In this document: positions 1-35,590 of the stretch, in pieces
Numbering within the stretch: position 1 is the stretch's first letter
Layout of the letters: each line of letters starts with the position of its first letter
Source: Candidatus Desulfobacula maris
Lineage (GTDB): Bacteria; Desulfobacterota; Desulfobacteria; Desulfobacterales; Desulfobacteraceae
NCBI GenBank assembly: GCA_014383445.1
Contig: JACNHV010000223.1
Coordinates: 1 to 35,654, forward strand
Direction: 5' to 3'
DNA length: 35,654 bases
Translations under genes and position numbers: made by a program
The notes under the pieces: model-generated
The model's input: only the letters and a program-made list of their open reading frames with translations
What the model was told of the DNA's origin: nothing
Database searches by the model: none

Positions 1-14
1 AGGAGGTGATTATT

Positions 15-1511
15 ATGATCAGAGGACTTCAACCCGGTATCAGTACTATGGATGGCTGGGGGTTGAGCATGTTCACCAATGATGAATTGACCGAAATTCA
101 TCTGGCCACCTTAGACGTGCTGCAAAATTATGGTGTCGGAGTTTATTGTGACGAGGCCATGGATATTTTTGAAAGCAGCGGGGCTTATGTGGACCGTGAA
201 AAAAAACATGTTCGCATCCCTCCACACCTGGTGGAAGATGCCATTAGATCTGCTCCCAGCACCATTCTGATGGCTGGGCGAACCCCAAAATATGATGTAA
301 CGCTTCAGGGAGGCAGGATCGGATACACCTGCTTTGGCGCAGGAGTCATGGTCGTGGATCCCTTTACCGGTGAGCACCGGGAATCCAACAAAATAGATGT
401 CGGCCATACCGCTTTGGTATGTGATGCCATGGATAATGTGGATATATACTCCAGTGCAGTGGTTGCCAGGGATATCGAGCGGGCTACCGATTTAAATGAA
501 GCCGAAGCGTTTTTAAGCAACACGCTCAAGCACTGCCACCATATTGATTTGACTGGCGGTGAAGGAGCAAAAAAGTTTTTTGAAATGGCTGCTGCCATTG
601 TTGGTGGAAAAGACGAGTTAAGGAGACGGCCCCTGGTTTCTGCTCTGGTGTGTCCAACCAGTCCGTTGGAGCTGCACACGCATACCGCAGAAATCATCAT
701 TGAGTGTGCCAAGGCAGGCATTCCGGTGAACGTTCTTTCCATGGCCATGTCCGGGGCTTCTGCCCCTGTCACCATTGCTGGAACTTTGGTAACCCACAAT
801 GCAGAAGTGTTGTCCGGAATTGTTCTGGCCCAGTTGACTGCTAAAGGAGCTCCGGTTATTTACGGCAGCTCCACTACAACTTTTGATTTAACCTATGCCA
901 CCGCTCCGGTCGGTGCACCGGAACTTGGAATGATCAGTGCCGGCGTTGTGGCGTTGGCACGCAAGTATATGTTGCCCAGTTATGTGGCGGGTACATAGGC
1001 TGACAGCAAAATTTCCGATTGCCAGGCAGGACATGAGAAGACTATAACTTCTCTGTTGCCGGCATTGGCGGGCGCAAATATCATTTACGGGATGGGTATG
1101 TTGGAGTTAGGTGTGACTTTCAGCTTTGCCCAGCTTGTTATCGACAATGAAATTGCCCGGATGTGTAAAAGAGTGGCTATGGGAGTACCAATCAATGATG
1201 AGACTTTGGCGGTTGAACTCATAAAGGAAGTTGGGTCCGGAAAAGATTTTCTGGCTAAGAAACATACCCGGCAGTTTATGGGACAGGAACAGTCCAAGGT
1301 AAAATTGATCGACCGGAGAATGAGAGGTGCCTGGCAAAAACGTGGCGGCAAAGATATGGCCGAGGCGGCTGCAGACGAAGCTCGCTACATTTTGGAAACA
1401 CATAAACCAGAACCACTTTCAAAAGAAGTTTTGTCAAAATTGCGCTCCATAGTTGAAGAACAGGAGGCTTTGGAAGCGGAACAAGCCGCAAAAGCCGAAA
1501 GAGAAGGATAA
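15..1511 (+). CDS. mttB: Trimethylamine:corrinoid methyltransferase MttB, pyrrolysine-containing (UAG read through)
   Basis: Transfers a methyl group from trimethylamine to the Co(I) corrinoid of its partner protein. The reading frame is interrupted once, by TAG at 996-998, and continues in the same frame to TAA at 1509-1511. Residues on both sides of the TAG belong to one MttB-family protein: upstream ends PSYVAGT, downstream begins ADSKISDCQAGHEK, and the C-terminal half follows without a gap. Read through, the protein is 498 residues with Pyl at 328; from memory, Methanosarcina MttB is about 495 residues with Pyl near 334. ATG 15 is chosen because AGGAGG at 1-6 sits 8 nt upstream; the GTG at 6 overlaps that ribosome site. 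The promoter lies left of the window. The Liv-type importer genes follow after a 318-nt gap. The alternative, a nonsense mutation, is unlikely given pylT, pylSn and pylB in the same window. Confidence 0.95.
996..998 (+). other. In-frame UAG decoded as pyrrolysine in mttB
   Basis: TAG in the mttB frame, between the Thr codon at 993 and the Ala codon at 999. It lies where MttB-family enzymes carry the Pyl that binds and activates the amine. The frame after it has no stop for 170 codons. Position and context are seen; decoding as Pyl is inferred from the family and from the tRNA-Pyl gene at 24724-24796. Confidence 0.93.
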
Positions 1512-7774: not shown

Positions 7775-9505
7775 ATGGCAAGAATCGGGATTGCATTGGA
7801 TCTGGGTACTAGTGGATTTCGTGGGCAAGCCCTGGATCTGGATCAGAACGGAATGATTATATCCACCGCAGTGACCACCCGGCATCCCCTTCCTGGCGCC
7901 AATGTTATGGATCACCTTCATTTTGCCATTGAGCTGGGCCTTAATCGGGCCCATGAGATTATGGTTCATGCTGTCAACAAAGTGATTGATAATTTAAAGA
8001 TTAAAAATGATGAGGTGGTGCGACTAGCCGTCTGCGGTAATCCTATCCAGCTTTCTCTTTTCCAGAAGATCGAAATCAGGGATCTTGCATATGCGGGAAA
8101 GAGGAAGTTGGAAGCTTTGGGAGTAGTTGCCCCCAAAAGAGACGCTCAAATCCTGAAAGCTTGCGAAATTTCAGGACTCAATCTACCGACCAAGACAGAT
8201 ATCCTGATTCCTCCGGCGGTTCGGCATGAAATCGGAGCCGATGCCCTGGCCATGATGATCCAGACCGGCATGCTGGAAAAGGATGAAATCGCCATTGCCA
8301 CGGATTACGGTACGAATGCTGAGATGGCGCTCATTGTAAAAGGTATCGTTTACACCGGTTCAACTGCAGCCGGCCCGGCCTTGGAAGGGCAACATATCCA
8401 GGATGGTCTGCTGGCCCTTCCCGGAGCCATCTGTGATGTCGAGTTCGAGTCAGAAAATGGCTCATATCCAGACGGCTCAGATACACCGGAGAAAAATCAA
8501 CCCCTATACAAAGGCCTGAAAACTTTTGTTCTCAATAATGACATGATTGTTCAGCCAGGGGATACGGTGGACCCAGCCACAGGAAACCGTCTTGAAAAAG
8601 GGGTGGAAAAGGCTGTAGGTATAACAGGGACCGGAGTTTTGGCCTTGATCAGCCAGGGTATTGAAGCAAGGCTCATTCAAATTCCAAAAATCATTACTTC
8701 GGATGCAAAAATTCATTTGTCTAACGGGATCACGTTTACGGAGAAAGATCTTGAAGAGGCCGGCAAGGCCATTGGCGCAATCAGAGCCGGCCATATTTCT
8801 TTATGCCAGGAAGCTGGAATTAATCTTGACGATATTGAAACCGCATACATGTGCGGAGCTTCCGGTACTTATGTAGACGCGCTCAAGGCCCAGAAAATTG
8901 GTATGATACCAAAGGGGGTAAAAAAAATCTACCAGGTGGGCAATTCTTCTCTGGCTATGGCCGGAGATATGGTCAGGAACGTGGATGAACTCTGGCACAT
9001 GAAGCAGATTGCCAATGATTTAAGACAGCATCACTGCATGTTTGCCGATTCCAAGACATTCGAAAAAGTTTATATCCTGGAACTCTCTTATTGGACAGAG
9101 GGGATGTCCATGGAGCAATATCATAAGTTTTTGAAAAAATTTGGTCTTCCTCCTTTAAAAGAGACTATGGCTATTTCCGAGGTTATTAAGACTGTTAAGC
9201 AGGATATTCCAGAGTTGGGAATCAAGGGTCTCAGGATTATCTCCGATATCGGTGAACAAAAAACCATAGTTTTCGAGGGTTGCATAGGCTGCGGTAGCTG
9301 TGTTGAGGAATGTCCCGAAAATGCTCTTTGTTTAGAAGATAAGGAAGGATGTTTTTCTATCACCATGGACCTTGCCCGATGTAACGGGCTTGCATGCAGA
9401 AGATGTGAAAAAGTATGCCAGGAGAAAGTTTTTGTCCAAAAAAAAATGTATAGTGCTAAAAACGAACAATACTCAGAAATAAAAGGAGGCTATTATGATA
9501 GTTAA
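7775..9505 (+). CDS. ramA: RamA-type reductive activase of methylamine corrinoid proteins
   Basis: 576-residue ATP-dependent iron-sulfur protein that returns oxidised Co(II) corrinoid to Co(I). The N-terminal part is the ASKHA-like corrinoid-activation domain (ALDLGTSGFRGQ near residue 8; later ATDYGTNAEMAL and GITGTGVLALIS). The C-terminus carries two cysteine sets typical of 4Fe-4S clusters: C503, C506, C509, C513 and C536, C541, C544, C548. A GAAAGGAG site precedes ATG 7775. Archaeal RamA is about 540 residues; here about 28 residues extend past the last cluster. It lies between the UroD-family enzyme and the corrinoid protein, as expected for a methylamine operon. Confidence 0.92.
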   Translation: MARIGIALDLGTSGFRGQALDLDQNGMIISTAVTTRHPLPGANVMDHLHFAIELGLNRAHEIMVHAVNKVIDNLKIKNDEVVRLAVCGNPIQLSLFQKIEIRDLAYAGKRKLEALGVVAPKRDAQILKACEISGLNLPTKTDILIPPAVRHEIGADALAMMIQTGMLEKDEIAIATDYGTNAEMALIVKGIVYTGSTAAGPALEGQHIQDGLLALPGAICDVEFESENGSYPDGSDTPEKNQPLYKGLKTFVLNNDMIVQPGDTVDPATGNRLEKGVEKAVGITGTGVLALISQGIEARLIQIPKIITSDAKIHLSNGITFTEKDLEEAGKAIGAIRAGHISLCQEAGINLDDIETAYMCGASGTYVDALKAQKIGMIPKGVKKIYQVGNSSLAMAGDMVRNVDELWHMKQIANDLRQHHCMFADSKTFEKVYILELSYWTEGMSMEQYHKFLKKFGLPPLKETMAISEVIKTVKQDIPELGIKGLRIISDIGEQKTIVFEGCIGCGSCVEECPENALCLEDKEGCFSITMDLARCNGLACRRCEKVCQEKVFVQKKMYSAKNEQYSEIKGGYYDS

Positions 9506-9673: not shown

Positions 9674-10318
9674 ATGGAAAAAGCAGAATATATGGAAAAG
9701 GCTGCCCAGCACATTGTTGATGCAGATGAGGAAGCAGTAGAAAAACTGGCACGTGAATATTTAATTGAGGGCTTTGATCCGATTGAGATGATCGAAAAAG
9801 GTCTTTCTGAAGGCATCCGGAAACTTGGGGTTCTCTTTGATCGCGGCGAGATTTTTTTACCGCATCTGATCATCGCATCAGAAGCAATGACTACAGCGGT
9901 AAAGATACTGGAGCAGGCCATGCCTGCAGACCAGGTTGGCAAAAAGCTCGCCAAGGTTGTTATTGGAACCATTGAAGGCGATGTACATGACATTGGCAAA
10001 GGCATTGTTGCCACCATGCTAAGGGTTTACGGCTTTGAGGTCTTTGATCTGGGTCGAGATGTACCGATTGCTACTTTTGTGGAAAAAGCAAAAGAAATCG
10101 GCGCAGACGTTGTTGGCTCATCCGCTTTGATGACAACGACCATGGTGGGACAAAAAGCCCTTGAAAAGGCATTAAAAGATGCTGGACTTCGAGATAACCT
10201 GATAACCATGTTGGGTGGTGCAGCGACCACCGAGCATTGGGCTGCCAAAATCGGTGCAAATTTTTGGGCAGAAAGTGCAGGTGATACTGTGATGAAACTC
10301 AAAGAGATATTCAGTTGA
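9674..10318 (+). CDS. Methylamine corrinoid protein (MttC/MtbC family)
   Basis: 214-residue methyl carrier. Residues 1-90 are the helical cap domain of methyltransferase corrinoid proteins; residues 92-210 are the B12-binding Rossmann domain. The DxHxxG motif is GDVHDIGKG, with H105 as the lower cobalt ligand, followed by the SSALMTTTM and MLGGAATT segments that surround the cofactor tail. GAGGAGGTG upstream supports ATG 9674. It is the only corrinoid protein in the methylamine half of the window, so it either serves both MttB and MtbB, or a separate mttC lies left of the window. Its position directly before mtbB makes MtbC the better guess. Confidence 0.9.
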
Positions 10319-10332
10319 AAGGAGGGAATTAT

Positions 10333-11733
10333 ATGAAAAAACACTTAACCAGGCGAGGGGACGGGGCGCTCATAGAAATGACTTCGGAGGAAATAATGAT
10401 CGCCCTGGAAGCGGGTACCGAAGACGCCGCCGACAGAGGTAAGATAGCCCCTTTATCGAAAGATGACCTGGAATGTCTGCTTGACATTTTTATGGATACC
10501 AACAGAGTTGTGAGCGTGGCACACGGGGAAGAAGTTGTGGTCACGCACGACATTGGTACCTTACGATTGATGGGAGACCAGGGCAACAGCGGTGTCGGTA
10601 TCCCTTTGAGCAGGCTACAGGGCATCCAGGTCCATGAAAGGGCATTTTGTTCCGATACCATGGAGCTTGGACATATTGATTATAGCTTTAAACCAGTAAA
10701 ACCGGTTATCGCTATGGAACAGCAGGAAATGGAAAGTGCTCTTTTGTCAACCATTATCCCTCTGTTTTACGGTGCCATGCCCAATCTGGGCACGTACTAC
10801 AGCCCGGACGGGCCCTTTGGAAATCCTTCTGATTTGTTGCCGGCAGGCAAGGTCAAGGAGGCCTATGAGGCCCAGGAAAGTGCTGTGGAGCATGCTACTC
10901 GAGATATGGTGTATGTGGGCCAAAAGCTTGCACAAGTCGGTTGTGACGGGATCAATTTTGATACCACCGGGGCAGCGGGGGATGCAGATTTTAAGGCCAC
11001 CCTGCACGCGGTGGAAAAGTTGAAAAAAACCACTGACTTGACCGTTCAAGTCGGGATGGCCGGGGAATTTGTACTGGGTATGCATGGCGGTCTTGAATAT
11101 GGTGGTCGGAGACTCGCAGGTTTATACTGTCATGATCAGGTTAAACTTGCTGAGAAAGCCGGGGCCGATATTTTTGGTCCGGCGGTTAACACGAAGCCCA
11201 GCAAAGACATGCCGTGGAATTTGGCCAGAGCGGTGACCTTTGTAAAAGCCTGTGTTGAAGTCTCCAATATTCCTGTTCATGTGAACATGGGAATGGGTGT
11301 GGGCGGAATACCTGTATTTGAAACACCGCCCATCGACGCAGTCAGCAGAGCGTCAAAAGCCATGGTGCAAATTGCCAAGGTAGACGGTTTGTAGATAGGC
11401 GTTGGAGACCCTATGGGAATGTTGATAGCTCACGGTGTAGCAGCAGGAATGGGTGGAATAAGGACTGCCGGAGATCTGGTAGCCCGCATGCAGATGACCC
11501 GCAAGATGCGGATCAACGAAGCAAGAGCCTATGTTGCCACAAAGCTAAAGATATCCCCATCCGACCTGTCGGATGTATATGTAATGAGAGAGGTCCGCGA
11601 GGAGCTGGACATCGGGATCATTACATCCGTCCCTGGTTGTGCCAAGGGAATTGAAGCAAAAGCAAGAATTGCTCAACTGCTTGATATCGAAATTGCAAGC
11701 GTAAATCGATTAAAGAATAAGATAAATTTTTAA
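10333..11733 (+). CDS. mtbB: Dimethylamine:corrinoid methyltransferase MtbB, pyrrolysine-containing (UAG read through)
   Basis: Demethylates dimethylamine and methylates the corrinoid protein. Begins [23 protein letters not shown] 10333 is 6 nt after GGAGGG at 10321-10326, so the in-frame TTG at 10315 is not used. The frame meets TAG at 11392-11394 in the context [16 protein letters not shown] and continues with no break to TAA at 11731-11733. That context is the Pyl site of MtbB. Read through, the protein is 466 residues with Pyl at 354; from memory Methanosarcina MtbB is about 467 with Pyl near 356. Without readthrough the last quarter would be lost. A strong terminator follows. Confidence 0.96.
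11392..11394 (+). other. In-frame UAG decoded as pyrrolysine in mtbB
   Basis: TAG between the Leu codon 11389 and the Ile codon 11395. The surrounding residues (DGL before, IGVGDPMGM after) match the conserved MtbB Pyl site. The frame stays open for another 112 codons before TAA. Decoding is inferred from the family and the linked tRNA-Pyl gene. Confidence 0.95.
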
Positions 11734-23163: not shown

Positions 23164-24264
23164 TCACCCTTTCTTTGCAGAGGAGCGGATCAATGTTTTT
23201 TGTCTGGCCACTGTCCAGGACAGGTATTCTTCCGGTCTAGCAGGTAAAAGTCCGCAGGCTTTCACGATTGGTAAAATATGATCCAGGGTCCTTCGTGAAT
23301 CTTCAATATCAAGGGAATGGTTGGCAACTCCTGCAAGACCTTTTTCGGGAGGGACAATAGATGTCACAACATTGGCGCCTGCAGTAAGTCTTGCTTTTAA
23401 GCCGGAAAGTCCGTTAACATCCAAAGAGGCAGGAATAAGCCGGTCCGGAAGTACCAGCCGCATGACGGCAATGATGATTAGTTCCATCAAATTATTCTGG
23501 GGCGTTGTTTTGGCCATGGGTGTGCCTGCCTGGGGAACAAAGGTCATTACCCGGGCCTGGTCTACGGAAAAGTCCCTCATCCAGATAATGGAGTCGGCCA
23601 GGTCATCCAGTGTTTCTCCAACACCGGTGAGAATACCTTCTTCAATGAGCATCCCAAGACTTTTGGCCAATTGTTTTTTTGCCAGCCTTTTTTTAAATCC
23701 CTGTCCCTGCCGCAGGGCTTTATACAGGGTCTCATTATGTGTCTCCTGGTAGCAGGCATACCAGGAGACTTGCGCCGCTGCCAGTTCCACAATGACTTTG
23801 TCAGGCAATGTGCCCGGAGAAATCATCACGGGAAGTTTTGTTTCATTTTGGACAATTTTGATCATGCTAACCAAGTGATTGAATCCATTCTCCCCTAAAG
23901 AATAGAATTCCGGGTCCTCACCCATGGTCAGGTCAATAAGATGTACCCCGGCATCTGTCATTTCTCTAGCAGCCGTTAGGATTTCGTTTTGGGTTTTTCG
24001 ATATCGGGGAAGCATGGTATTGGACTGCCTGTATTGGCAGAAGTTACAATTGTTCCGGCAGTGTGTGGAAAAATACAGAAATCCGTACAGAAAAATCTTG
24101 TTTCCAAAATATCTGGTCCGAACATTTTGGGCTGCCTCAAAAAGCAGGCTGGTGTCTTCTGGATCAGAAAGCCCGAGAAGATATTTTATTTCGTTTTTTT
24201 CTACAGGATGACCTTTTAATAAATGATCTAAAATTCCGGTTAGATTTAAATCTGCCTGCTGCAT
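23164..24264 (-). CDS. pylB: PylB, radical SAM 3-methylornithine synthase
   Basis: 366 residues. It isomerises lysine to 3-methylornithine, the first step of pyrrolysine synthesis, with SAM and a 4Fe-4S cluster. The cluster motif is C69, C73, C76 in STHCRNNCNFC. Other PylB signatures are LTMGEDPEFY, MISPGTLPD, YQETHNETLYKALRQGQ, ILTGVGET, RVMTFVPQAGTPM and RLIPASLDVNG, all close to the archaeal protein as I recall it. A sound AAAGGAAAA site precedes ATG 24264. It lies 75 nt after pylSn on the same strand. BioB-like enzymes are the nearest alternative but lack these segments. Confidence 0.93.
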   Translation of the reverse strand: MQQADLNLTGILDHLLKGHPVEKNEIKYLLGLSDPEDTSLLFEAAQNVRTRYFGNKIFLYGFLYFSTHCRNNCNFCQYRQSNTMLPRYRKTQNEILTAAREMTDAGVHLIDLTMGEDPEFYSLGENGFNHLVSMIKIVQNETKLPVMISPGTLPDKVIVELAAAQVSWYACYQETHNETLYKALRQGQGFKKRLAKKQLAKSLGMLIEEGILTGVGETLDDLADSIIWMRDFSVDQARVMTFVPQAGTPMAKTTPQNNLMELIIIAVMRLVLPDRLIPASLDVNGLSGLKARLTAGANVVTSIVPPEKGLAGVANHSLDIEDSRRTLDHILPIVKACGLLPARPEEYLSWTVARQKTLIRSSAKKG

Positions 24265-24339: not shown

Positions 24340-24690
24340 TTAATCTTTATTTTTTAACAACATGGATCCCTGGTGCCTTTTAAATAGTGTTGAAGAATAT
24401 TTTTCAAGTTTCCAGTCCGGGACTCGGCATTTCGGGCACACCTGCACAAACCATTTGTTCCTCAACCAACGTCCCGCCCGACTGTTCAAAGAATTACTGA
24501 TAAGAAACTCTTTGTTGCAATGGGTTGTTAGCTTGGCAGTGTCACCCATGATTTCTATTGTCCGAATTCCATGGAGTTTTCCTGTTCGGGAGGGCCACAG
24601 CTTGATCTTGTCGATCAGGTTGAAAATCCGTACTCTTTTTCGATAATACCGTTTTTTAACCGGTTTTATTTTATTTTCTTCTGTATCCAT
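24340..24690 (-). CDS. pylSn: PylSn, separate N-terminal tRNA-binding domain of pyrrolysyl-tRNA synthetase
   Basis: 116 residues. In bacteria the N-terminal tRNA-binding part of PylRS is a separate protein, and this is it: KLWPSRTGKLHGI, NSLNSRAGRWLRNKW and QVCPKCRVPDWKLEKY follow the archaeal PylRS N-terminus segment by segment, including the paired cysteines of the zinc site (CPKC). It binds the small-cornered tRNA-Pyl and raises aminoacylation by PylSc. The gene starts 33 nt after pylT on the same strand, so the two are likely one transcript. No Shine-Dalgarno sequence is visible in that AT-rich spacer. The catalytic half pylSc is not in the window. Confidence 0.93.
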   Translation of the reverse strand: MDTEENKIKPVKKRYYRKRVRIFNLIDKIKLWPSRTGKLHGIRTIEIMGDTAKLTTHCNKEFLISNSLNSRAGRWLRNKWFVQVCPKCRVPDWKLEKYSSTLFKRHQGSMLLKNKD

Positions 24691-24723
24691 GAATCATTCA
24701 ATTTATTTATTTTTAATTTTTAA

Positions 24724-24796
24724 TGGCGGAGAGTCCGGGAGTCGCACCCGGCTGCATGGATTTAGAGTCCATGTGATCCCATCCGATCCACCCTCC
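24724..24796 (-). tRNA. pylT: tRNA-Pyl, anticodon CUA
   Basis: Read on the minus strand (5' end at 24796): a 7-bp acceptor stem (GGAGGGT with ACTCTCC), one base before the D stem, a 4-bp D stem (GATC with GATC) and a short D loop. The anticodon stem has 6 bp (CATGGA with TCCATG) with loop CTCTAAA and anticodon CTA. A 3-nt variable loop CAG, T stem CCGGG/CCCGG, discriminator G and encoded CCA complete it. The one-base junction, 6-bp anticodon stem and 3-nt variable loop are the hallmarks of tRNA-Pyl, and the layout matches the Desulfitobacterium tRNA as I recall it. 73 nt in all. Confidence 0.97.
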
Positions 24797-25175
24797 GCAA
24801 TATATAAAGGGATAAGGGATAAGGCTATAGCGCTCATCAAAACTGAGACACCCATGCTCAGATAAATTCAGACACCATGATATTCATGTTTTCGAGATTG
24901 CCATGATGCCTTATCGCATCATATGCAGTTATTCAATTTAAAAAATAACATTCTTTGTCCTTGATTCGATTATGATCGCCCGAAGGTCACACGTAAAAAA
25001 GGTTAGGGATAAAAGGGCTCAAATGCTCAAGCCTTTGCTTGACAAATTCATCCAGAAGGAAATACCGTCTGTTGTTACATGGTCGCTACTGCCCCCTTAT
25101 TGTGCTAATTAAAAGTCAGCAGTTATAATTTTATTATCCAATGGATAGCCTTAATAAAATAAAAACATGAGTGTA
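24797..25175. other. Intergenic region between pylT and the DUF2284 gene; holds a histidine-kinase fragment
   Basis: No gene found. Near pylT there is a short tandem GGGATAA (24809-24822). At 24842-24874 two similar octamers, GAGACACC and CAGACACC, lie in one orientation and could be an old transposon end, but nothing else supports that. At 25011-25060 lies the exact 50-bp copy from the kinase gene. It should also contain the pylT promoter, though I could not assign one. Confidence 0.55.
25011..25060. repeat. 50-bp direct repeat, intergenic copy
   Basis: Identical to 21018-21067, same orientation. Here it is non-coding and cut off from the rest of the kinase gene. The two copies bracket most of the kinase N-terminal part, pylB, pylSn and pylT, a span of about 4 kb. 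Confidence 0.95.
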
Positions 25176-33002: not shown

Positions 33003-33998
33003 TCATTCAATCCGGCCTTTATACCGGATACCCGTGATTTCATCGGTTTTAAAGTCAAATAAAACCCTGCAGGTTTGTCCCTGTTCCAGAACCACCTGGT
33101 CATTCTGGGTTACGTTTCCAATAATATTGGCATCAATATTCCGGCTTGCGAACAGTTCCAGCACTTTTTTTGAGTTTTCAGGCTTGACGGCAAGGATAAA
33201 GCCAAAACTCTGGAAACAATGGAGCCAGTCTTTAAGTCCGATGGAGGCAGGTCTTGGGATGTCATCCAGACGAATGTGACCTCCTTTTCCTGAATTTTCC
33301 ATAAATATTGAAATCGTGCCCAGAATACCGGCATTGCTGATATCCTTTGCCGCACAGGATAAGTTTTGTTCTGCAATCAGCGGCAATATGTCAAGGCGGT
33401 AAAGCAATTGCTCCGGGGTTTTACCGGAATTTGCATCCCAGCTTACCACAGAGTGGCATCCGGGTCGACCCGTCAGATCCACGGCCAGGATCAGGTCATC
33501 GCCATTTTCTGCCAGGTGGCTTCTTAAAAGTTTTTTGGCCTTACCCAGGATGGCCACGCTCAATGAAGGGGTTTTCATATCCGGATCAGGATGGAGATGG
33601 CCACCCAGCATGGGAACCCGAAGTTTATGGCATCCTTTTTCAATGCCCGCAACAATCAGGGAGCGCTGTGTTTCATCTCCGCTGGCCAGAACATTGACCA
33701 TGCCAATGGGCCGGCCGCCCATGGAATAAATATCGTTCACCGTCACCATGACCGAGGCTTTGCCGGCAGCATAGGGTTCGTTGATGATCAGAGCGGTCAT
33801 CATTCCGTCTGCAGCAAGCAGCAGGTATTCATCCTTAAAGGGTATGACGGCGGCATCATCACCGAAATTGGGCAGGGCTTCTCCGTATGTGCATGTGGAC
33901 TTCAGTTTTTCAACAACCTTTTTTATCGGGTGTTTACGCACAAGGCCGACATAGTTTCTGACTGCCTCGACAATCGGGTCTAAGTTTATATCATTCAT
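33003..33998 (-). CDS. AIR synthase-like protein of the Sll0787 family
   Basis: 331 residues with the PurM/HypE/SelD-type ATP-binding fold: FGDDAAVIPF near residue 42, VNDIYSMGGRPIGMVN near 107, and DISNAGILGTISIFMENS. It belongs to the AIR synthase-like group found in the Nit1C (Sll0783-0788) cluster. The gene overlaps the preceding radical SAM gene by 4 nt (ATGA), so they are translationally coupled. The reaction is unknown; related proteins use ATP to activate amide or carboxyl groups. Confidence 0.72.
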   Translation of the reverse strand: MNDINLDPIVEAVRNYVGLVRKHPIKKVVEKLKSTCTYGEALPNFGDDAAVIPFKDEYLLLAADGMMTALIINEPYAAGKASVMVTVNDIYSMGGRPIGMVNVLASGDETQRSLIVAGIEKGCHKLRVPMLGGHLHPDPDMKTPSLSVAILGKAKKLLRSHLAENGDDLILAVDLTGRPGCHSVVSWDANSGKTPEQLLYRLDILPLIAEQNLSCAAKDISNAGILGTISIFMENSGKGGHIRLDDIPRPASIGLKDWLHCFQSFGFILAVKPENSKKVLELFASRNIDANIIGNVTQNDQVVLEQGQTCRVLFDFKTDEITGIRYKGRIE

Positions 33999-35590
33999 AT
34001 CTGGATATCTTTCGGAACAAGGTTCAGATTTGCCTCCATTTTTTGATGGGGGTGTCCCAGATGGGATTTAACGGGTCCGACAGGCTTCCAGCCAAGCTCT
34101 GAAAAAAAGGGGACATTTTTTTCCTGGATATGGGCCGTAAATACCCGGCATCCTTTTTTTTGCACCCGTTTCATGGCTTCCTTGACCAGGGCCGTGCCGG
34201 CATGGGTGGATCTTGAATTCTTTTCTACGGCCAGTCTGCCACCGACCCAGTGATCCAATCCCGTATCGGTTTTATAAATCCGGACGGTTCCGATCACCTT
34301 TTCGTTCTGGGTGGCAACCAGGTGAATGGCGTTTTGGTCATTTTCATCCCGATCAGACTTGTCAAACAAGCCCTGTTCATTGACAAAGATCTGCTTTCTG
34401 ATCCTAAAGGCTTCGGATGTTTCATCCGGGTTTCTGGCCGAGTGACAGATCAAATCCTCTTCCTTGTTTTCATAGGCGGACAGTGCAGAGCAGGCACCGC
34501 ATCTGGCACATCCTGCCAGAATTTTATGTGTGGCAATCCCTTTGGTTTGAAGAATTTTACCAACAGCTTCATAAACCTGCTTCATCATATCCGGATGGGG
34601 CGGTGTTGATCGTTTGAGACTTGAGCCCGGGATAGGACGAAGGGGCACAACAAAGGGATACACTCCCAGATCTGCAAGGAATTCACTTCCCCAGGCAATG
34701 GAGGTGATGGTTTCTCCCAGGCCTGCAATGATAAAACTGCTGACCTGGTTCACGCCAAATAATTGAACTGCCTTTTTCCAGGCTCGCTCATAATGGTTTA
34801 AACCGATTGCCGCTTTGGCAGGGGCCATTTTTAAAAGAATATCTGCATCAAAACTTTCAATATGGATACCAATGGATTCTACTCCGGCATCCTTTAGCTC
34901 GTCAATAAGGCCAAGGTCTTTTGGGGGGGCAATCTGGACCTGCAGCGGTATATTTGCTTCTGCTTTTATGGCCCTGGCACATTGAGCCAGATACGGGATT
35001 TCGCTTCCCGGGGGATCACCGATACCGGATGTGAGTATCATATGGGTCACACCATCCATATCCCGGGCAGCCCGGGCAACCTGGGCAAGTTGTCCCGGTG
35101 TTTTTCTGGCAATGGTATGATTGTTGGAAAGAGAGGATTCTGTTGCACAAAATTTGCATTTTTGTGAACGCTTCCAATGAACACATCTTTGCAGAACGGT
35201 TGTGGCCAGGCAGTCTTTGCCGTGGAGAAGGGCAATCTGCCTGTAAGAAATGCCCTCATCTGTGGATTTGCTGTAAAATCGGGGTTCCGGTACAACATGA
35301 AGGGATGAAATGGGTTTGCCGTTTTTTAAGAGAAGATATCCTGCAGCGGTTTCTTTCAGGGTAAAAGGTGACGTTAAGACATAGTCTGCCGCAATGGGAA
35401 CGCTCACAGGCACACCATTGATCAGGAATGCACGGCCCTCGGCAGGCCCTGCTCCCCCATTTCGTCCCGTAATATCTTTCTGGACCTGGATACCCAGGCT
35501 CTGTATCTCAGTTATGAGATGGTGCAATGTACCACCTGCTGCGTTGACTGCGGTCGTTCCTCCCTGCGGAGTATGACTTATACGCCTCAC
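33995..35590 (-). CDS. Radical SAM (MSMEG_0568/Sll0785-like) fused to GNAT acetyltransferase (Sll0786-like)
   Basis: 531 residues from GTG 35590. Residues about 22-380 are a radical SAM domain with TGRNGGAGPAEGR near 41 and cluster cysteines C136, C145, C148 (CX8CX2C, wider than the standard CX3CX2C); a further CARCGAC lies near 365. Residues about 385-525 are a GNAT acetyltransferase (RIRKQIFVNEQG, GTVRIYK, GTALVKEAMKR). In the Nit1C cluster these are separate neighbours, so this is a fusion. GTG 35590 has AAGGAG upstream, but the first 20 residues lie in repeat-like DNA, and TTG 35527 with AGGTGG upstream fits the family N-terminus better. The cluster has been linked to cyanide assimilation in other bacteria. 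Confidence 0.75.
   Translation of the reverse strand: MRRISHTPQGGTTAVNAAGGTLHHLITEIQSLGIQVQKDITGRNGGAGPAEGRAFLINGVPVSVPIAADYVLTSPFTLKETAAGYLLLKNGKPISSLHVVPEPRFYSKSTDEGISYRQIALLHGKDCLATTVLQRCVHWKRSQKCKFCATESSLSNNHTIARKTPGQLAQVARAARDMDGVTHMILTSGIGDPPGSEIPYLAQCARAIKAEANIPLQVQIAPPKDLGLIDELKDAGVESIGIHIESFDADILLKMAPAKAAIGLNHYERAWKKAVQLFGVNQVSSFIIAGLGETITSIAWGSEFLADLGVYPFVVPLRPIPGSSLKRSTPPHPDMMKQVYEAVGKILQTKGIATHKILAGCARCGACSALSAYENKEEDLICHSARNPDETSEAFRIRKQIFVNEQGLFDKSDRDENDQNAIHLVATQNEKVIGTVRIYKTDTGLDHWVGGRLAVEKNSRSTHAGTALVKEAMKRVQKKGCRVFTAHIQEKNVPFFSELGWKPVGPVKSHLGHPHQKMEANLNLVPKDIQI

Follow-up and report, generated by a model that had tools for sequence, protein, structure and literature searches.

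We confirmed a genuine, intact gene for tRNA-Pyl (pylT), the tRNA by which UAG, otherwise a stop codon, is translated as pyrrolysine, the 22nd amino acid, on the minus strand of the window, the 35,654-nucleotide stretch analysed here, which is contig C24 of a 4.85-Mb assembly (400 contigs, completeness 94.2%, contamination 1.76%) from a member of the Desulfobacula group. The unexpected part lies at the level of the genome, in which two differing tRNA-Pyl sets accompany a single detected PylSc, the catalytic subunit of the split pyrrolysyl-tRNA synthetase. Probably, the window gene encodes a functional bacterial tRNA-Pyl that is charged via PylSn and a PylSc encoded elsewhere in the genome and shared by both sets, and that reads the UAG codons of the methyltransferase genes mttB and mtbB.

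The sole tRNA gene that ARAGORN reported for the window lies at 24724-24796 and was called tRNA-Pyl (anticodon cta). A sequence-only reading had proposed a complete tRNA-Pyl gene with a CUA anticodon there, and the ARAGORN call, the fold and two covariance models bore it out; the minus strand is added here. At minimum energy the tRNA is predicted to adopt the expected cloverleaf (−30 kcal/mol, z −1.98); 7 of 200 shuffles reached an equally good fold, and the fold energy, taken alone, is weak evidence. From the 5′ end, the structure comprises an acceptor stem of 7 bp, 1 nt, a D stem of 4 bp with a 6-nt loop and 1 nt, followed by an anticodon stem of 6 bp, a 3-nt variable loop, a T stem of 5 bp, G73 and CCA. 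The features named beforehand as special to tRNA-Pyl (one base between acceptor and D stem, a 6-bp anticodon stem and a 3-nt variable loop) are thus all present in a fold parsed with tolerance for an anticodon stem of 5 or 6 bp, an acceptor/D spacer of 1 or 2 bases and a variable loop of 3 to 5 nt. The anticodon loop reads CUCUAAA, with CUA as the anticodon.

The covariance-model search proposed as a check was carried out with two models, R1, built from 16 tRNA-Pyl of other groups (one of them, L182, from a record titled Desulfobacteraceae), and R2, for which we took 8 tRNA-Pyl from records with Bacillota, Clostridia, Thermoleophilia or similar names in their titles. Across the 35,654 bases of the window, on both strands and up to E 10, each model returned pylT as its sole match (89.0 bits, E 1.3e-20 for R1; 87.4 bits, E 5.3e-19 for R2). 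Among 28 other tRNA-Pyl, 99.0% of 616 cells were paired and 11 of 22 pairs had changed on both sides, values as high as which were seen in 0 of 500 shuffles; the weakest covariation measure, that of further pair types, was matched by 12 of 500 shuffles. A chance cloverleaf was rejected on the grounds of the single model match in the window and the covariation. It had also been foreseen that a tRNA model might score the element as an unrelated amber suppressor or as no tRNA; ARAGORN and both covariance models call it tRNA-Pyl instead. That the element is an amber suppressor of a general type, or tRNA-like without being tRNA-Pyl, has next to no probability: we found no support for it, a Tymo_tRNA-like hit that scored 13 bits against a gathering score of 40 (E 2.3) being at chance level, and the held-out models, the tRNA-Pyl geometry and the neighbouring pylSn and pylB speak against it. 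We rejected the generic suppressor on the ARAGORN call, the held-out models and the neighbour genes. The remark that such a gene is easily missed by tRNA finders held for the general tRNA family of Rfam, which was absent from the five matches obtained up to E 10 in 24600-24900; it did not hold for ARAGORN, which finds the tRNA.

By-eye comparison with the identity elements drawn from PMC11764691, a list that may be incomplete, located G73, G1:C72, G10:C25, G51:C63, U33 and A37 in the window tRNA. Its T-loop, UGCGACU, lacks TPsiC since position 55 is a G, and C56 is kept; the same review gives an altered T-loop motif for tRNA-Pyl, with T54U and C56A. The D-loop is given as five bases for split-type tRNA-Pyl (PMC11764691), whereas 27 of the 28 compared tRNA-Pyl, the window's included, combine a length of 73 nt with a D-loop of six bases, the remaining one having seven; the difference is lineage-wide and no defect. 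Letter for letter, the window tRNA is identical to those of two other genomes, G053 and G035, and it shows no damage of the kind seen in two genomes of the Desulfotignum group, G061 (L249:2864-2936) and G062 (L250:2975-3047). These hold a lone pylT with an intact anticodon arm and a broken T arm and 3′ end, and searches for PylSn and PylB in both genomes gave no matches; this lone pylT is a relic. Since ARAGORN still calls the relics tRNA-Pyl and they still reach 60.4 bits with R2, a model score alone is no proof of function.

The window contains the following features of the pyrrolysine system and of methylamine metabolism:

24724..24796, minus strand: pylT, tRNA-Pyl with CUA anticodon (ARAGORN, fold, held-out covariance models)
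24340..24690, minus strand: pylSn, tRNA-binding subunit of split pyrrolysyl-tRNA synthetase, 116 aa (TIGR03912, 133.9 bits, cut-off 51.15)
23164..24264, minus strand: pylB, methylornithine synthase, 366 aa (TIGR03910, 494.7 bits, cut-off 348.2)
6..1511, plus strand: mttB, trimethylamine methyltransferase, in-frame TAG at 996-998 (TIGR02369, 736.1 bits with 1 TAG inside)
996..1095, plus strand: PYLIS_3-like stretch starting at the mttB TAG (Rfam RF02510, 79.5 bits, gathering score 38)
7775..9505, plus strand: ramA, reductive activase of methylamine methyltransferase corrinoid protein (TIGR04270, 762.7 bits, cut-off 500)
9674..10318, plus strand: cognate corrinoid protein, MtbC-like, named by eye (ORF, 81% identical to a copy on contig C377)
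10315..11733, plus strand: mtbB, dimethylamine methyltransferase, in-frame TAG at 11392-11394 (TIGR02368, 653.8 bits with 1 TAG inside)
11392..11491, plus strand: PYLIS_2-like stretch starting at the mtbB TAG (Rfam RF02509, 81.3 bits, gathering score 36)

On the same strand as pylT, pylSn begins 33 nt past it and encodes a protein that matches the solved PylRS chain 5ud5 (E 1.6e-10), and pylB begins 75 nt past pylSn, giving the order pylT-pylSn-pylB with pylT first. No pylC, pylD or pylSc follows pylB in the window, where the next long ORF on this strand is a PAS/GAF histidine-kinase-like gene. Scans for promoters (8 found versus 4.8 in shuffles) and terminators (3 versus 2.4) yielded nothing usable. 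The two UAG codons linked to the tRNA by the sequence-only reading proved real, each opening a PYLIS match and lying in a frame that stays open, for 170 codons beyond the TAG in mttB and 112 in mtbB. TAG ends 3 of 30 non-overlapping ORFs of the window (at least 120 aa, mechanically picked): mttB, mtbB and one more, whose frame stays open for 4 codons beyond the TAG. Elsewhere in the window (33995-35590, minus strand), a 531-aa ORF carries a radical SAM and then a GNAT acetyltransferase domain and adjoins an AIR-synthase-like gene.

That the window tRNA directly explains these two UAG codons was upheld in part: judged from sequence, it would be a sufficient decoder, yet not the sole possible one, because the genome contains a second tRNA-Pyl and further UAG genes. 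The mttB family has 17 matches in the genome, and those listed include full-length genes with one TAG on contigs C24, C114 and C180 and a partial match with a TAG on C26; mtbB genes with a TAG lie on C24 and C377. Contig C377 also carries, on its minus strand (L007:5706-7454), an AOR-like ORF that ends in TAG and is followed by 356 open codons into a LacI-like gene (both named by eye), probably two neighbouring genes that share a frame by chance.

The second tRNA-Pyl lies on contig C16, is 88% identical to the window tRNA over the matched part and differs from it in having 74 nt, the acceptor GGGGAGU and a 7-base D-loop. C16 also carries a thioesterase-like gene, a second PylB, PylD and a second PylSn. 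C377 encodes the genome's only PylSc match above the cut-off; residues 4-280 of the 280 in this protein align with the PylSc of D. hafniense (2zni, E 1.6e-89), which is known from the structure of an enzyme-tRNA complex (PMC9071458). Within a second mtbB, C377 and C16 overlap at their right ends by 55 identical bases, and the two contigs are therefore neighbours in one region. The matches over cut-off in the whole genome thus come to two PylB, one PylD, two PylSn and one PylSc. No PylC exceeded the cut-off on any of the 400 contigs, an ATP-grasp-like match on C134 scoring 45.9 bits against a cut-off of 248.3, so that the assembly lacks a complete pathway to pyrrolysine. A gap in the assembly would account for this absence more simply, because in two relatives (G037 and G032) PylC directly follows PylSc, whereas here the contig ends 294 bases after pylSc (L007:1-294, C377), with no ORF of 70 aa in between. 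Within these 294 bases there are two pairs of 50-55-base repeats, which probably explain why the assembly stopped at this point; pylC might lie in the gap.

The two tRNA-Pyl of this genome belong to different cluster types, for which we coined the labels type I and type II in this analysis. The type I order, common in the window's family, is pylT-Sn-(B)-C-D-Sc, often with a corrinoid protein gene inside; the type II order, found in many other Desulfobacterota records, is pylT-Sc-B-C-D-Sn. The window's pylT is of type I (73 nt, acceptor GGAGGGU, 6-nt D-loop, CCA encoded). In G037, G038 and G054 the tRNA-Pyl also has 74 nt, the acceptor GGGGAGU and a 7-base D-loop, and such 74-nt tRNAs resemble many type II tRNAs. 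In the tree, the genome's PylSc is sister to that of G037 (84% identical) and stands apart from the type I clade (bootstrap 100, SH-aLRT 99 for this split); it is 46.7-51.8% identical to 22 type I rows and 53.3-61.5% to the other named rows (L183 and L172 apart). AU tests rejected topologies in which it was joined to type I with its sister G037 left behind (p 0.00039), together with L172 while G037 stayed outside (p 0.000044), or together with L172 and L183 while G037 stayed outside (p 0.00038). With G037 moved along there was no rejection (p 0.193; p 0.175 with G037 and G032 moved along). We dropped the p value of 0.00039 as proof of a non-type-I PylSc since that test parted PylSc from its sister sequence. 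Sequence comparison makes a non-type-I descent of the genome's PylSc likely, not established. In quick trees, the PylB of C16 falls with L158, from a cluster of type II order (SH-aLRT 94), and the window's PylB falls within its genus.

Two sets of different type in one bin could arise if the C16/C377 set had come from a different organism through misbinning, with the PylSc, PylC and PylD that belong to the window's set lying in unassembled DNA. The assembly statistics given above leave room for this, no contig joins the two sets, GC differs (0.412 for C16 versus 0.459 for the window), and tetranucleotide frequencies cannot exclude a close relative, the correlation with the window being 0.966 for G053 and 0.935 for Desulfocicer. 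Against these points, C16 and C377 form one region, their tetranucleotide correlations with the window (0.935 and 0.961, respectively) stand well above that of Desulfospira (0.655), three further genomes from the genus (G037, G038 and G054) have a type II tRNA-Pyl, and the G037 bin likewise unites a type I PylB with a type II tRNA. We regard the binning error as unlikely.

The second alternative, to which we give somewhat more weight but still consider doubtful, is that pylT-pylSn-pylB in the window is what is left of an ancestral cluster, now redundant and in the course of being lost, with the second tRNA-Pyl doing the decoding. Many relatives have the whole pylT-Sn-(B)-C-D-Sc cluster, of which C, D and Sc are missing past pylB here, and G061 and G062 have the broken lone pylT described above. 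G037, at a locus with flanking genes common to the window, keeps pylB and, as a stub, about 34 codons of pylSn; the search detected no pylT at that place, the sole tRNA-Pyl match of that genome being of type II, and its type II tRNA-Pyl, PylSc and PylC lie elsewhere, a state that also counts against the functional reading of the window's set. Desulforapulum (Desulfobacterium) autotrophicum HRM2 (G057; L042, L260) retains pylT-pylSn-pylB, and searches of its two-contig genome for PylSc, PylC and PylD found none; no TAG occurs in the 3 mttB-family matches listed of 11, and there is no mtbB match. Table 1 of PMC3639795 lists D. autotrophicum with pylS and an MtxB gene, which would disagree with our result unless the pylS of that table is pylSn. 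What speaks against a remnant is that the window tRNA is without defect and identical to that of G053, where the operon is complete, and that pylSn and pylB are open, with dN/dS against G053 of 0.156 and 0.161, respectively. The corresponding values between two complete operons (G053 versus G036) are 0.176 and 0.198, and window pylB gives higher values against G051 (0.248) and G037 (0.233). By these figures the window's pylSn and pylB look constrained, with the proviso that pairwise dN/dS also records substitutions older than the loss of a type I PylSc, should one have occurred.

Our preferred reading is that of a functional window tRNA, for which we propose the following course. pylT, pylSn and pylB are probably co-transcribed; PylSn would hold the window tRNA while the PylSc encoded on C377 charges it with pyrrolysine, and the charged tRNA-Pyl would then read the in-frame UAG of the mttB and mtbB mRNAs. 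The single PylSc match was computed directly, as were the tRNA, its features, its neighbours, the UAG genes and the second set. Since the search gave a single PylSc beside two tRNA-Pyl and two PylSn, this one protein would most likely serve both sets; a second PylSc could be missing from an assembly of this fragmentation and completeness.

A survey of the family put this arrangement in context. PylSn exceeded the cut-off in 27 of 86 genomes, with two copies in five (the window's genome G000, G032, G041, G049 and G060), and R1 detected tRNA-Pyl in 33 of 86, with two in five (G000, G017, G041, G060 and G081). PylSc, searched in 28 genomes (E up to 1e-15), was present as one copy over the cut-off in 24, partial in 1, absent in 3 and never present as two; G041, with two tRNA-Pyl and two PylSn, was among those searched and yielded none. 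Two tRNA-Pyl, two PylSn and a PylSc occurred together only in the window's genome and in G060, Desulfospira joergensenii DSM 10085, which has one PylSc. Since the latter is a cultured isolate with a doubled set, a binning error is unlikely as a general explanation. We tentatively suggest, at rather less than even odds, that both here and in D. joergensenii one PylSc serves two tRNA-Pyl and two PylSn, a mix-and-match split synthetase with interchangeable tRNA-binding modules. Other arrangements were seen in the course of the survey. Desulfotignum S09.Bin188 (G069; L067/L153) has a pylT-Sn-D-Sc cluster with an amber mttB on the same contig, and PylB and PylC, searched for throughout its genome, were not found. 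G081 has two tRNA-Pyl in one cluster (L062:5016-5088 and 7842-7914), one before pylB and one before pylSn-C-D-Sc. L173, L177 and L185, which include the Olavius symbiont Delta 1, show pylT-Sc-Sn with B, C and D not found in the stretch, that of L177 being only 3,241 bases long.

The window tRNA adds one genome to the known pyrrolysine-using sulfate reducers. Pyrrolysine use, including tRNA-Pyl, has already been published for the Desulfobacula-related Deltaproteobacteria bbl-31 and bbl-16 (PMC8318568), which share with the window a related host group, a CUA tRNA-Pyl with a longer anticodon stem and a shorter acceptor/D junction, and a trimethylamine methyltransferase with UAG. The window differs from them in that its cluster is cut to pylT-Sn-B and in the second tRNA-Pyl set, which is not reported in the parts of PMC8318568 consulted; the words pylT and PylSn are absent from the main text of that paper. 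The closest counterpart among the genomes is G053 (Desulfobacula sp. CSMAG_2491, L050 = L136), with an identical tRNA-Pyl, PylSn 86% and PylB 79% identical; unlike the window, it has pylC, pylD and pylSc after pylB. D. autotrophicum HRM2 has the pylT-pylSn-pylB block in common with the window and, unlike the window's genome, yielded no PylSc, PylC, PylD or mtbB match, which makes the role of a tRNA-Pyl without its enzyme directly testable in that organism. The block looks like a separable unit, duplicated or left alone in several relatives. A limited search of literature titles, weak as evidence of absence, returned none on two bacterial tRNA-Pyl/PylSn sets. Should a single PylSc function with the two sets, the split PylRS would be modular in nature, which would bear on how a bacterial synthetase finds its tRNA and on the use of several PylRS pairs per cell. 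According to the part of PMC9071458 consulted, two distinct PylRS are known from two archaea and from no other organism. Those archaea resemble the present genome in having more than one pyrrolysine synthetase set per organism; their enzymes are without PylSn and comprise two catalytic proteins in each organism, whereas the present genome encodes a split enzyme, for which a single catalytic subunit was detected.
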